This document shows, piece after piece, positions 21,637 to 26,685 of a stretch of DNA of 64,000 nucleotides (position 1 is the first letter of the stretch; the number at the start of each line of letters is the position of its first letter). The stretch is from assembly GCA_018814045.1 (NCBI GenBank), contig JAHJAR010000277.1, positions 1 through 64,000 of the forward strand. The letters run 5' to 3'. The notes beneath the pieces are model-generated. The model was not told the DNA's origin and searched no databases. It was given only the letters and a program-made list of their open reading frames with translations. The DNA comes from Planctomycetota bacterium (lineage in GTDB: Bacteria; Planctomycetota; Phycisphaerae; UBA1845; Fen-1342). A program made the position numbers and the translations under genes.

Positions 21637-22396
21637 GAAATCGGCCACGTGTGTCGAACTGAGCAAGGAGGGCAACGTCGCGACGATCCGGTTCGTGACC
21701 GAGCAGCGCGTGGCCATCTTCTCGTCGCGCGTCCTAGGGGAATTGGGCACGCTAGTCCAGCAGGTGGCCGAGGAGCCGCACGTGCGTTTCGTTGTCCTGC
21801 GCGGAAGCGGTCCCGTTTTTCTCGCCGGTGCCGACCTGGGTGAGATGGTGCATTTCAATGAGGATCAGGGCCACGCGCTCACCCGACACGGCCACAACGT
21901 CATGAATGCCATTGAAGCGCTGCCCCAAGCCACGATCGCCGCCATCGCGGGGCACGCCCTGGGTGGCGGTTGTGAGTTGGCGATGGCATGCGACTTCCGC
22001 CTGATGGTCAAGGGGGCCCGCATCGGTCAACCCGAGAGCCGCCTCGGATTGACGCCGGCTTGGGGCGGAACCAGGCGCTTGCCGCAACTGGTTGGCCTCG
22101 CCCGTGCTCGCCGCATGATGTACTCCGGCGCGGCAGTCTCCGCCGCGGAGGCGCTGGAGATCGGCTTGGTGGACGAAGTCGTGGACTCCGCTGAAGACCT
22201 GGATGCGGCACTGGCGCGCTGGTTTGAGGCCCTGGGTGCGGGTTCGCCAACGGCTGTTACGCGGATCAAGCGGGCGATCCTGCACAACGACGAAATGAAG
22301 CAATTCGGCATGTGTTTCAGTTGCTACGACGCCAAGGAGGGGATGAAGGCCTTCCTGGAGAAGCGACCACCAGCCTGGGCCAAGCCTTCCGACTGA
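21623..22396 (+). CDS. Enoyl-CoA hydratase (crotonase family)
   Basis: 257 residues. The two catalytic glutamates are in place: E118 in '[13 protein letters not shown]' and E138 in '[19 protein letters not shown]', with the 20-residue spacing of rat crotonase E144/E164. The oxyanion-hole segments '[10 protein letters not shown]' and 'GHALGGG' are present. It hydrates trans-2-enoyl-CoA to 3-hydroxyacyl-CoA. ATG 21623 lies inside the end of the preceding gene, with GGGAAGGG about ten bases upstream. Last gene of the operon, so this one transcript encodes a complete beta-oxidation turn. Confidence 0.92.
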
Positions 22397-22645: not shown

Positions 22646-22674
22646 TTGACATGCGCACGCCATTCCCGTCTAAT
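22646..22674 (+). promoter_or_regulatory. Strong sigma-70-like promoter for a candidate RNA
   Basis: TTGACA at 22646-22651, a 17-base spacer, and TCTAAT at 22669-22674, one mismatch from TATAAT. This is the best promoter match seen in the window. Transcription would start near 22681, exactly before a run of strong hairpins and almost 500 bases before the next protein gene. Confidence 0.65.
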
Positions 22675-22680
22675 AAAGAG

Positions 22681-22822
22681 GCGGAGGGCACCCACCGCCA
22701 ACAGCGGGGGAGCCCTCCAACCACACAAGACAGTGCATGATCCACTAGGGGGAGCCTAGATCATGCACCACAGAAAAAGAGAGGGCCGGCCCCTAAGCGG
22801 GGGGGCCGACCCAAACTTTTGT
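22681..22822 (+). ncRNA. Candidate structured small RNA, about 140 nt
   Basis: Between a near-consensus promoter and a terminator lie two further hairpins and no credible ORF. Hairpin 1 (22683-22718): GGAGGGC/GCCCTCC, then CCC/GGG and CCGC/GCGG, loop CAACA, with only an A-A mismatch and a one-base bulge. Hairpin 2 (22733-22768): GTGCATGAT/ATCATGCAC, then CTAGG/CCTAG with loop GGGAG. The 8-mer GGGGAGCC occurs in both hairpins, and its complement GGCTCCCC follows at 22846-22853. No known family (6S, SRP, tmRNA, RNase P) is recognised. It could also be the leader of the lipoprotein gene at 23164 if termination is regulated. Confidence 0.55.
22783..22820 (+). terminator. Terminator of the candidate small RNA
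   Basis: GGGCCGGCCCC (22783-22793) pairs with GGGGCCGACCC (22802-22812) with a single C-A mismatch, followed by AAACTTTTGTC. It closes the predicted RNA that begins near 22681. Confidence 0.6.
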
Positions 22823-23163
22823 CTCGTCCTTGCTTCCGTCCTCTCGGCTCCCCTTGAAAGGAGGAACAAGTACCGTTAGACCATGTAATACTAGGCCTCG
22901 TCACCTCGTCTTTTCTACCGCGCAACCCATAAAAAGTCACATTTTTGTAACCCACGCTCCTCGCGCGGGTTGCCGCCGGGAAGGCGTCGTTTGACTCGCC
23001 GCTCTCGTCAGTCGCGCAACCTGCGTGGCGCGGCACCTACCCGGTCCGCCCCGAATCTGATACGCTCCCGCGAGATGGTGACGTGCCGCGCGGATCATGC
23101 CTGCGAGACGTCGTACTCCTCCGCGCCGCGCGTCCGCGCCGCCCACCTACAAGGGAGAGAGTG
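22823..23163. other. Intergenic region between the candidate RNA and the lipoprotein gene
   Basis: 341 bases without a gene. It contains CTCCCCTTGAAAGGAGG (22848-22864), a strong ribosome-binding-like AAAGGAGG with no start codon at a useful distance; the next ATG (22883) is followed directly by TAA. An AT-rich block at 22930-22950 (CATAAAAAGTCACATTTTTG) has self-complementary arms AAAAAGT/ATTTTT. Function unknown. Confidence 0.4.
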
Positions 23164-25253: not shown

Positions 25254-25374
25254 CCGCTCAGCGTCCTGACGAGACACTTGTTCGGATAGTAGAATGCTAC
25301 AGTGACGCGGGGTGGGACGTGCCCTCCGCTCCAGCGGTCCGTTGTAAGATCACGATCGATTGGGAGGTTCAGCC

Positions 25375-26685
25375 ATGATGCGAGCGATGCAGCACCGCCT
25401 GGGTACCGTGTTCGTGCTCTCCGCAACGGCTGGGTTGATTACCAGTGGCTGTTGCGCCCTGTTTGGCGAGGAGGAGACGCACCCGGCGCCGGGTCAGGAA
25501 GTCAAGTCGTCAAAGGCGCGTGTGACCTCTCCGGTCTTGCCAGAGGGTGATCTCGACGAACTCGTCACCGGCAATACGGCCTTTGCGCTCAACCTCTACC
25601 AGCAAGTGCGTAGCCAGGATGGCAACGTTTTCTTCTCCCCTCACAGCATCTCGCTGGCACTGGCCATGACCTATGCGGGGGCACGTACGGAAACCGAGCA
25701 GCAGATGGCAGATGCGCTCAAGTTCACGCTTCCACAGGAGCGCCTGCACGCCGCCTTCAGCGCGCTGGACCAGGAACTGGCCAGCCGCGGCGCGGGCGAT
25801 GGTGACTCTGCTGGTTTCCGACTGAACATAGTCAACCGTATCTGGGGGCAGACCGGCTACTCGTTCCTGGAGGCGTTTCTCGACACATTGGCGGAGAATT
25901 ACGGGGCTGGGTTGAACCTGTTGGATTTCGTCAACCAGCTCGAGCAGTCGCGGATTGCGATCAACGAGTGGGTCAGCCAGGAGACCAAGGGCAAGATCAA
26001 GGACCTCATACCTGCCGGGGCGCTCACATCGCTCACCAGACTGGTCCTGACGAATGCGATCTACTTCAAGGCCGCCTGGGCCGAGCCGTTCGAGGAATCC
26101 GCCACAGCAGACGGTTCCTTCACGCTGCTTGATGGCAGCCCGGTCACTGTGCCAATGATGACCCAGGTGGCCGGCTTCAGATACGCCGCTGGCGACGGCT
26201 ACCAGGCCATCGAGCTGCCCTACGAAGGGCGCGAACTGTCAATGGTGGTCCTCTTGCCTGACGCCGGGAACTTCGAGGCGTTCGAAGTTGCACTCGATGC
26301 CGTGACTCTCCAGGGCATCGTGGACGCCCTCGCCGCGCGTGAAATCAGGCTGACCACGCCCCGGTTCACGTTCGAGTGGAGTGTGGGCCTGACAGAGGCG
26401 CTCTCCATGTTGGGCATGCCGCTGGCTTTCAGTGCCAACGCCGACTTCTCCGGAATGGACGGGACGCACGGCTTGCTGATCCAGGATGTTCTGCACAAGG
26501 CCTTTGTCGCGGTCGACGAAGAAGGTACCGAGGCGGCCGCCGCGACCGCGGTGATCGTCGGGCTAACGGCCGTGCCCCCGCCGGCACTCAGCGTCACAGT
26601 CGATCGGCCGTTCGTGTTCCTGATTCGCGACGTCGAGACCGGGGCCATTCTGTTTCTGGGGCGAGTTGTGAATCCGGCGTCATAG
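25375..26685 (+). CDS. Serpin, probable lipoprotein
   Basis: 436 residues; GGGAGG at 25362-25367 fixes ATG 25375. The N-terminal hydrophobic stretch ends 'LITSGC', an acceptable lipobox, followed by a linker of about 35 residues. The serpin domain then runs to the end: 'NVFFSPHSISLALAMTYAGA', 'LVLTNAIYFKAAW', 'VDRPFVFLIRD'. The hinge E382-EGTEAAAATA is the consensus for inhibitory serpins, so it should trap a serine or cysteine protease. With the usual 17-residue loop spacing P1 would be T398, near L397. A periplasmic or surface protease guard is likely. Convergent with the next gene, only nine bases apart. Confidence 0.92.
   Translation: MMRAMQHRLGTVFVLSATAGLITSGCCALFGEEETHPAPGQEVKSSKARVTSPVLPEGDLDELVTGNTAFALNLYQQVRSQDGNVFFSPHSISLALAMTYAGARTETEQQMADALKFTLPQERLHAAFSALDQELASRGAGDGDSAGFRLNIVNRIWGQTGYSFLEAFLDTLAENYGAGLNLLDFVNQLEQSRIAINEWVSQETKGKIKDLIPAGALTSLTRLVLTNAIYFKAAWAEPFEESATADGSFTLLDGSPVTVPMMTQVAGFRYAAGDGYQAIELPYEGRELSMVVLLPDAGNFEAFEVALDAVTLQGIVDALAAREIRLTTPRFTFEWSVGLTEALSMLGMPLAFSANADFSGMDGTHGLLIQDVLHKAFVAVDEEGTEAAAATAVIVGLTAVPPPALSVTVDRPFVFLIRDVETGAILFLGRVVNPAS

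Follow-up and report, generated by a model that had tools for sequence, protein, structure and literature searches.

A conserved planctomycete RNA family whose G-rich loop probably pairs with the leader of a sigma-factor mRNA

The window analyzed here is a stretch of 64,000 nt from a planctomycete genome assembly (G000), which is MAG-like and comprises 5.5 Mb in 365 contigs. It contains an intergenic region of ~770 nt between an enoyl-CoA hydratase gene (PF00378), which ends at 22396, and an unassigned plus-strand gene starting at about 23164. A serpin gene (PF00079, E 7e-115) is found a few genes downstream, at 25360–26682 (+). An original prediction, made from sequence alone, had placed in the intergenic region an undescribed structured RNA with its own promoter and terminator, consisting of about 140 bases with hairpins but no ORF and followed by the next protein gene some 340 bases further on. 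This layout held: an ORF scan found no plus-strand ORF of at least 60 aa overlapping the region, and the next gene begins ~344 nt past 22820. The features of the locus are listed below; R1 and R2 are covariance models described later.

22646–22674, plus strand: sigma-70-type promoter of the sRNA, TTGACA-17-TCTAAT (consensus scan)
22681–22820, plus strand: putative sRNA, plus-strand member (5′ end inferred from the −10 box, 3′ end from the U-tract)
22683–22718, plus strand: hairpin 1 (GGAGGGC...GCCCUCC), the conserved 5′ stem (helix 1 of the alignment, 91.3% of cells paired)
22733–22768, plus strand: hairpin 2, stem GUGCAUGAUC / GAUCAUGCAC, which bears the seed loop (fold, 10 contiguous bp)
22749–22756, plus strand: seed GGGGAGCC, looped out in hairpin 2 and complementary to the sigma-leader sites (loop conservation)
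22783–22812, either strand: hairpin 3, probable bidirectional intrinsic terminator common to both convergent RNAs (terminator call, covariation)
22775–22903, minus strand: putative second, convergent sRNA, 5′ end not defined (R1, 23.2 bits; R2, 48 bits)
22839–22862, minus strand: seed hairpin of the convergent RNA, UCCUUUC-AAGGGGAGCC-GAGAGGA (pattern and hairpin context)

The promoter consists of TTGACA (22646–22651), a 17 nt spacer, and TCTAAT (22669–22674). It had been called the best promoter in the window, and indeed no other site on either strand of the 64 kb agrees with the consensus at 10 or more of the 12 positions; 20 first-order Markov simulations of the window gave a mean of 0.05 sites with at least 11 of 12 matches. 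A standard promoter scanner misses TCTAAT because it requires A at the second position of the −10 box. Downstream, the RNA of 22681–22820 is predicted to fold with −73.3 kcal/mol (z = −6.9), a value that none of 200 shuffled sequences reached, and the ~140 nt following the promoter are occupied by three stable hairpins (22683–22718, 22733–22768, and 22783–22812). As originally predicted, hairpins 1 and 2 share a sequence, GGGGAGCC; however, it is exposed in a loop only in hairpin 2, whereas in hairpin 1 it is hidden as part of the 3′ arm of the stem. For hairpin 3, terminator prediction reports the minus strand, with the tail TCTCTTTTTC, whereas the plus-strand tail of this hairpin, AAACTTTT, has four T only. 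The predicted terminator therefore held in part, being weaker on the plus strand than implied, and hairpin 3 is best taken as a likely bidirectional terminator on the basis of these computed calls. Of the features expected of an independent short transcription unit, a predicted promoter and hairpins without an ORF are present; the plus-strand U-tract is weak, and there are no transcript data.

The view of a single RNA held only in part, since the locus carries two predicted convergent RNAs, the second with a further hairpin at 22839–22862, beyond the segment first described. On the minus strand, this seed hairpin (22862–22839) reads towards the shared terminator (22812–22783), whose U-tract is better in that direction. 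R2 detects the minus-strand RNA in its own genome with 48 bits (E 5.7e-12), much of the score coming from the shared terminator. The arrangement recurs in relatives: opposite-strand GGGAGCC is present in 12 of the 15 sRNA loci listed (the G006 entry is a trimmed locus), and opposite-strand seed hairpins comparable to that of the window occur in most related loci. Counting both strands, 29 copies of GGGAGCC occur at sRNA loci, and 22 of them lie in a loop closed by at least six contiguous bp; at other loci, this holds for 19 of 167.

Homologs of the plus-strand RNA were identified with successive covariance models. R1, built from the window sequence alone, gave a modest match in G013 (E 0.125), where it matched two places in one intergenic region; on inspection, both copies combine a 5′ GGCGGAGGGC stem and a hairpin exposing GGGGAGCC in its loop with a third hairpin, which is GC-rich. 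Adding one G013 copy to the window sequence gave R2, which detected 11 more genomes at E ≤ 1e-3, among them G010, G026, G002, G006, G014, G016, G025, G021, and G005 at E ≤ 2.5e-7 and G017 at 1.3e-4. R3, built from 14 rows, matched 14 of the 114 genomes of the order, all within a family of 27 (G010, G026, G002, G006, G014, G016, G025, G021, G005, G017, G009, G023, G013, and G000); its match in the window covers 22674–22820. Three matches were not retained: the weakest R2 match, in G007 (L130, E 9.7e-4), lacks GGGAGCC in the stretch examined and is absent from the R3 matches, and two R1 matches were rejected on inspection, that in G006 (L063) for tandem GC-rich repeats and that in G000:C169 (L073) for poor stems. 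No Rfam 15 family reached its gathering threshold in the window (best chance match E 2.8), and in eight related loci no Rfam match covers the sRNA or the sigma leader discussed below. The sole Rfam matches in these eight loci are two Acido-Lenti-1 RNAs (RF01687) of a planctomycete genome, at L120:860–905 (−) and L120:1017–1062 (+), about 440–640 nt from the G010 sRNA.

Standard pairs account for 85.5% of cells in the 14-row alignment, versus 40–54% when the columns are slid by 1–3, and double changes occur in 30 of the 38 pairs versus 14.7 in shuffles. Hairpin 2, helix 3 of the alignment, has 8 of its 10 pairs changed on both sides, and hairpin 3, helix 4, has double changes in 11 of 11 pairs. 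These counts lean towards structure because alignments A5, A7, and A9 fitted hits to earlier models; in A9, moreover, the minus-strand terminator of the window is included as a partial row. The seed-hairpin stem reads GCACCACC...GGUGGUGC in most members, GCAUGAUC...GAUCAUGC in the window, and GUGUCGCC...GGCGACAC in G023, with the loop retained. Thus the loop of hairpin 2, GGGAGCC and mostly GGGGAGCC, is kept although the stem is rewritten: GGGAGCC is found in the loop region of every sRNA homolog listed, and G021 and the second G010 copy have it in place of GGGGAGCC. A conserved RNA family with a fixed loop on covarying stems is therefore shown by comparison, and a conserved unpaired seed on a structured scaffold, one criterion of a trans-acting base-pairing sRNA, is met by the window RNA. 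The original prediction of an undescribed structured RNA, which a lack of structural conservation in relatives would have refuted, was checked by the covariance search and held: compensatory changes support the structure and Rfam has no match, while transcription remains unshown.

The genomic setting of the RNA is variable. No sRNA was found 3′ of the orthologous enoyl-CoA hydratase gene in relatives (23 loci, own included), so the window locus lacks synteny in these genomes. A MoxR-type AAA ATPase gene (PF07726) lies upstream of the sRNA in G013, G010, G026, G014, and G021, and the G025 and G009 sRNA adjoins an EF-P-like gene as judged by eye. Since the neighbors vary between the MoxR-type ATPase and the setting of the window, the RNA is not tied to one neighbor. 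The G013 intergenic region (contig C22) holds two further sRNA-like units on the minus strand (L064:1080–1180 and L064:1332–1400), each ending in a strong intrinsic terminator and carrying CUCCUCCUCC where it is unpaired; possible partners of this motif are Shine-Dalgarno sequences and, weakly, the G-loop.

The sRNA was undetected in 13 of the 27 family genomes (G001, G003, G004, G007, G008, G011, G012, G015, G018, G019, G020, G022, and G024) despite sensitive R3 and pattern searches. Some of these are incomplete; G004, G011, G012, and G015 are near complete. Weak R3 matches (E 0.02–9.8) in sRNA-negative family genomes and in three genomes of another family (f8) were inspected in 14 of 18 cases: 13 lack GGGAGCC, and one (L304) has it in apparently coding DNA. 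The stretch inspected was only approximately centered in the cut loci L301, L305, L308, and L310, so that the match was possibly missed there. The pattern GGAGGGC...GGGGAGC occurs in sRNA-negative genomes at control level (28 matches versus 30 control matches). A DNA similarity search of 60 relatives returned, besides the window itself, only short matches, the longest of 37 nt; ten of these were inspected and represent apparently coding DNA and chance.

A candidate target emerged from a search of the own genome with the seed pattern WNGGGGAGCC, which occurs in 39 places. Two of these, on contig C123 and 40 nt from each other, belong to the leader of a sigma-factor gene, where the sites read GGCUCCCC in sense orientation just after a TATAAT. 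Among the other seed sites, only L112 and L076 scored at least 10 as hairpins besides the window, and both were judged coding by eye. The C123 gene encodes a 324-aa sigma-70 family protein with Sigma70_r2 and Sigma70_r4 above the Pfam cut-offs. Its best NCBIfam scores include RpoD and RpoS, both far under their cut-offs, and it is not an RpoS equivalog (102 bits versus a cut-off of 378.7). The named relatives with an orthologous gene are uncultured Phycisphaerae/Planctomycetota. In L115 (G000:C123) and in L295 and L296, from two f8 genomes, the sigma gene lies just 3′ of a MacB/FtsX-like permease gene, identified by eye.

The leaders of relatives (26 other genomes) were examined after the C123 sites had set the prediction. 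Of 30 sigma loci retrieved, 24 are first-paralog leaders with upstream sequence and hence assessable, the others being L153 (no upstream sequence), L172 and L175–L177 (second paralogs), and L174 (RpoD). GGCTCCC is present in all 24 leaders and GGCTCCCC in 23, i.e., the leader mRNA carries the exact complement of the seed, GGCUCCC(C). Two sites lie within 50 nt of each other in 17 of the 24, typically near −200 and −165, and the G018 leader is also two-site in addition to these 17. The background is low, with only 6 GGCTCCC in 190 kb of gene bodies and downstream parts from 80 sigma loci. In the second-paralog loci L172 and L175–L177, GGCTCCCC is absent within 600 nt upstream, and L172 has GGCTCCC at −1. 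Most family genomes carry such a second sigma paralog of ~325 aa, whose leader lacks GGCTCCCC sites in the loci examined. Some more distant relatives (e.g., L205, L220, L240–L242, L247, and L252) show a single GGCTCCCC at −213 to −290.

The pattern TATACTTN{3,14}GGCTCCCC, i.e., TATACTT-(3-14)-GGCTCCCC, matches 24 of the 114 genomes of the order, once each, versus 7 matches for its reversed control in the same 114 genomes. In the family it matches 21 of 27 genomes, and a comparison of coordinates places all 21 directly upstream of the sigma gene. The three matches outside the family are in f8; the two checked are flanked by a MacB-like permease gene on one side and the orthologous sigma gene on the other, so the permease–sigma neighborhood is conserved beyond the family. 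The distance from the −10 box to site 1 is 6–14 nt in 19 of 23 leaders scanned, and site 1 is therefore expected, given the usual spacing of transcription starts, to lie no more than about 10 nt from the start of the sigma mRNA, a likely inference. Site 2 lies in a leader hairpin. Its stem shows compensatory variation (CCCGGC/GCCGGG, UCCGAC/GUCGGA, UUCGAC/GUCGAA, and UUCAGC/GCUGAA) and forms 109 of 110 pairs in 18 hand-anchored leaders; the count omits G008, G019, G011, G004, G017, and G020, in which no stem was anchored by eye. RNAalifold found no pairs on a MAFFT alignment of 19 leaders.

Altogether, the sites are kept in every assessable leader while most of the leader sequence has changed, and the conserved complementary sites at one gene, as well as their positions, are shown by comparison. 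A conserved complementary site in a separately encoded mRNA, a further sRNA criterion, is thereby met. The proposal that the G-rich loop pairs with CU-rich targets was right in kind on this comparative evidence; an anti-SD or generic ribosome-site target was not borne out, the target found being the GGCUCCCC site pair near the 5′ end of the sigma mRNA.

Interaction calculations agree with this assignment. The plus-strand RNA is predicted to interact best with the sigma leader at site 2, through 11 bp (GGGGGAGCCUA) and with a net −13.6 kcal/mol once opening costs are counted; the minus-strand RNA does so at site 1, through 8 bp (−13.6 kcal/mol). With accessibility included, the sigma leader is the best leader tested for both window RNAs. 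Among 79 control leaders, many from loci that had been chosen for containing the seed, two tie, both being the sigma gene in other loci, and the other 77 fall short. Two-site leaders occur in 12 of 13 sRNA-positive versus 6 of 12 sRNA-negative genomes (Fisher p 0.03, phylogeny ignored). Cognate loop–site duplexes showed no significant advantage over non-cognate ones (p about 0.12, with 2360 of 20000 permutations as good), and coevolution of the flanks is therefore not shown. The leader site is also present in 12 of the 13 sRNA-negative family genomes, in G022 only as the 7-mer form; the RNA may have diverged there, or other RNAs may use the sites. Pairing itself is well supported by comparison and appears likely, in the absence of expression data.

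Collectively, we favor the reading that a multicopy trans-acting sRNA base-pairs with the sigma mRNA and probably activates it (probability about 0.78); transcription, pairing, sign, and mechanism are all inferred. In this model, an sRNA of ~140 nt, with a promoter, a 5′ hairpin, a GGGGAGCC seed hairpin, and a terminator, would act together with a convergent partner carrying the same loop. The loop would pair with the two GGCUCCCC sites in the ~200-nt 5′ leader of the alternative sigma-70 gene on contig C123. Pairing at site 1 would shield the mRNA 5′ end, and/or the sRNA would prevent base pairs between the CU-rich sites and the G-rich ribosome-binding site; either way, expression of the sigma factor would rise. 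Thermodynamic support for release of the RBS is weak: blocking the sites changes the predicted RBS openness from 0.37 to 0.42, with control windows at 0.39 (21 leaders).

A bolder reading, which we offer tentatively and would not quite back, is that in a lineage of uncultured Phycisphaerae/Planctomycetota a convergent sRNA array with one G-rich loop controls an alternative, perhaps general-stress, sigma factor. In the same reading, kissing with the leader hairpin and a covered mRNA start would form a 5′-end cap-like switch, independent of the enterobacterial rpoS sRNAs.

Known systems offer partial parallels. In enterobacteria, DsrA, RprA, and ArcZ converge on the long rpoS leader, and control of rpoS by OxyS and RprA has been described (PMC3708529). 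The likeness is that several sRNAs act on the mRNA leader of an alternative sigma-70 factor, and the target proposed here is likewise such a leader. However, the window RNA has no Rfam relation, a G-rich hairpin-loop seed, and convergent pairs, and the sigma-leader sites are duplicated, one close to the mRNA 5′ end and the other within a leader hairpin. The rpoS sRNAs act with Hfq to open an inhibitory stem that covers the RBS; here, the computed gain in RBS openness is small. FasX of Streptococcus stabilizes ska mRNA by pairing at its 5′ end (PMC4691137), and pairing at the extreme mRNA 5′ end is likewise proposed for the window RNA; FasX is, however, CU-rich rather than G-rich, and the present case involves a second site and an unrelated RNA and phylum. 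LhrC and RNAIII use CU-rich hairpin-loop motifs on G-rich targets with loop–loop pairing (PMC4691137). A conserved short loop motif and loop–loop pairing with the target are proposed here as well, but with the polarity reversed, the G-rich partner being the loop and the CU-rich partner the mRNA sites. LhrC is multicopy, as proposed for the window sRNA.

The strongest rival keeps the same sRNA and target but has pairing lower sigma expression, through RNase recruitment or premature leader termination. This remains possible: the pairing geometry leaves the sign unfixed, and repression is a common outcome of sRNA pairing. Against it, sites 171–239 nt upstream of the start codon are not expected to block initiation directly, and pairing near the mRNA 5′ end fits the stabilizing FasX–ska case (PMC4691137). 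We infer that activation is about twice as likely as repression. Three other explanations appear very unlikely. The loops could instead bind protein, making the RNA a CsrA sponge like CsrB/RsmY with only secondary complementarity to the sigma leader. Like CsrB/RsmY, the RNA has GGA in its hairpin loops, indeed in every loop, and CsrA is encoded in the window genome (G000:C142:11311–11466; PF02599, 86.9 bits). The CsrA-type loop motif is ANGGA; the loops here lack this core, an extra invariant GCC is kept after GGA, each RNA has a single GGGGAGCC motif and, in most members, one seed loop, and the conserved, matched complementary sites in one mRNA leader would be left unexplained. Alternatively, the hairpins could be a cis element, either terminators or the leader of the downstream lipoprotein gene. 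Hairpin 3 is a good bidirectional terminator, but hairpin 1 and the seed loop stay while the contexts differ (enoyl-CoA hydratase, EF-P-like, and MoxR-type AAA ATPase genes), and a terminator needs no fixed loop. Finally, a loop–site match due to chance, or to shared ancestry without function, could be suspected because the leader sites were noticed after a genome-wide search with 39 matches, but the follow-up in 26 other genomes postdates the hypothesis and found sites in every assessable leader despite extensive change around them, and the four second-paralog loci lack GGCTCCCC within 600 nt upstream.

A review table of the PVC group lists only 8 Rfam sRNA families (PMC9029176), and a search of the open-licence PMC literature found no paper on trans-acting sRNAs of these planctomycetes or on this RNA. 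If the proposed pairing is correct, it would add an independent instance of a sigma factor under sRNA control, one in which the seed/site polarity is inverted and site 1 lies close to the start of the mRNA. The predicted nucleotide pairings are exact enough for two-plasmid testing in E. coli, and a conserved sRNA with a nameable sigma target would be the first testable post-transcriptional circuit of this lineage.
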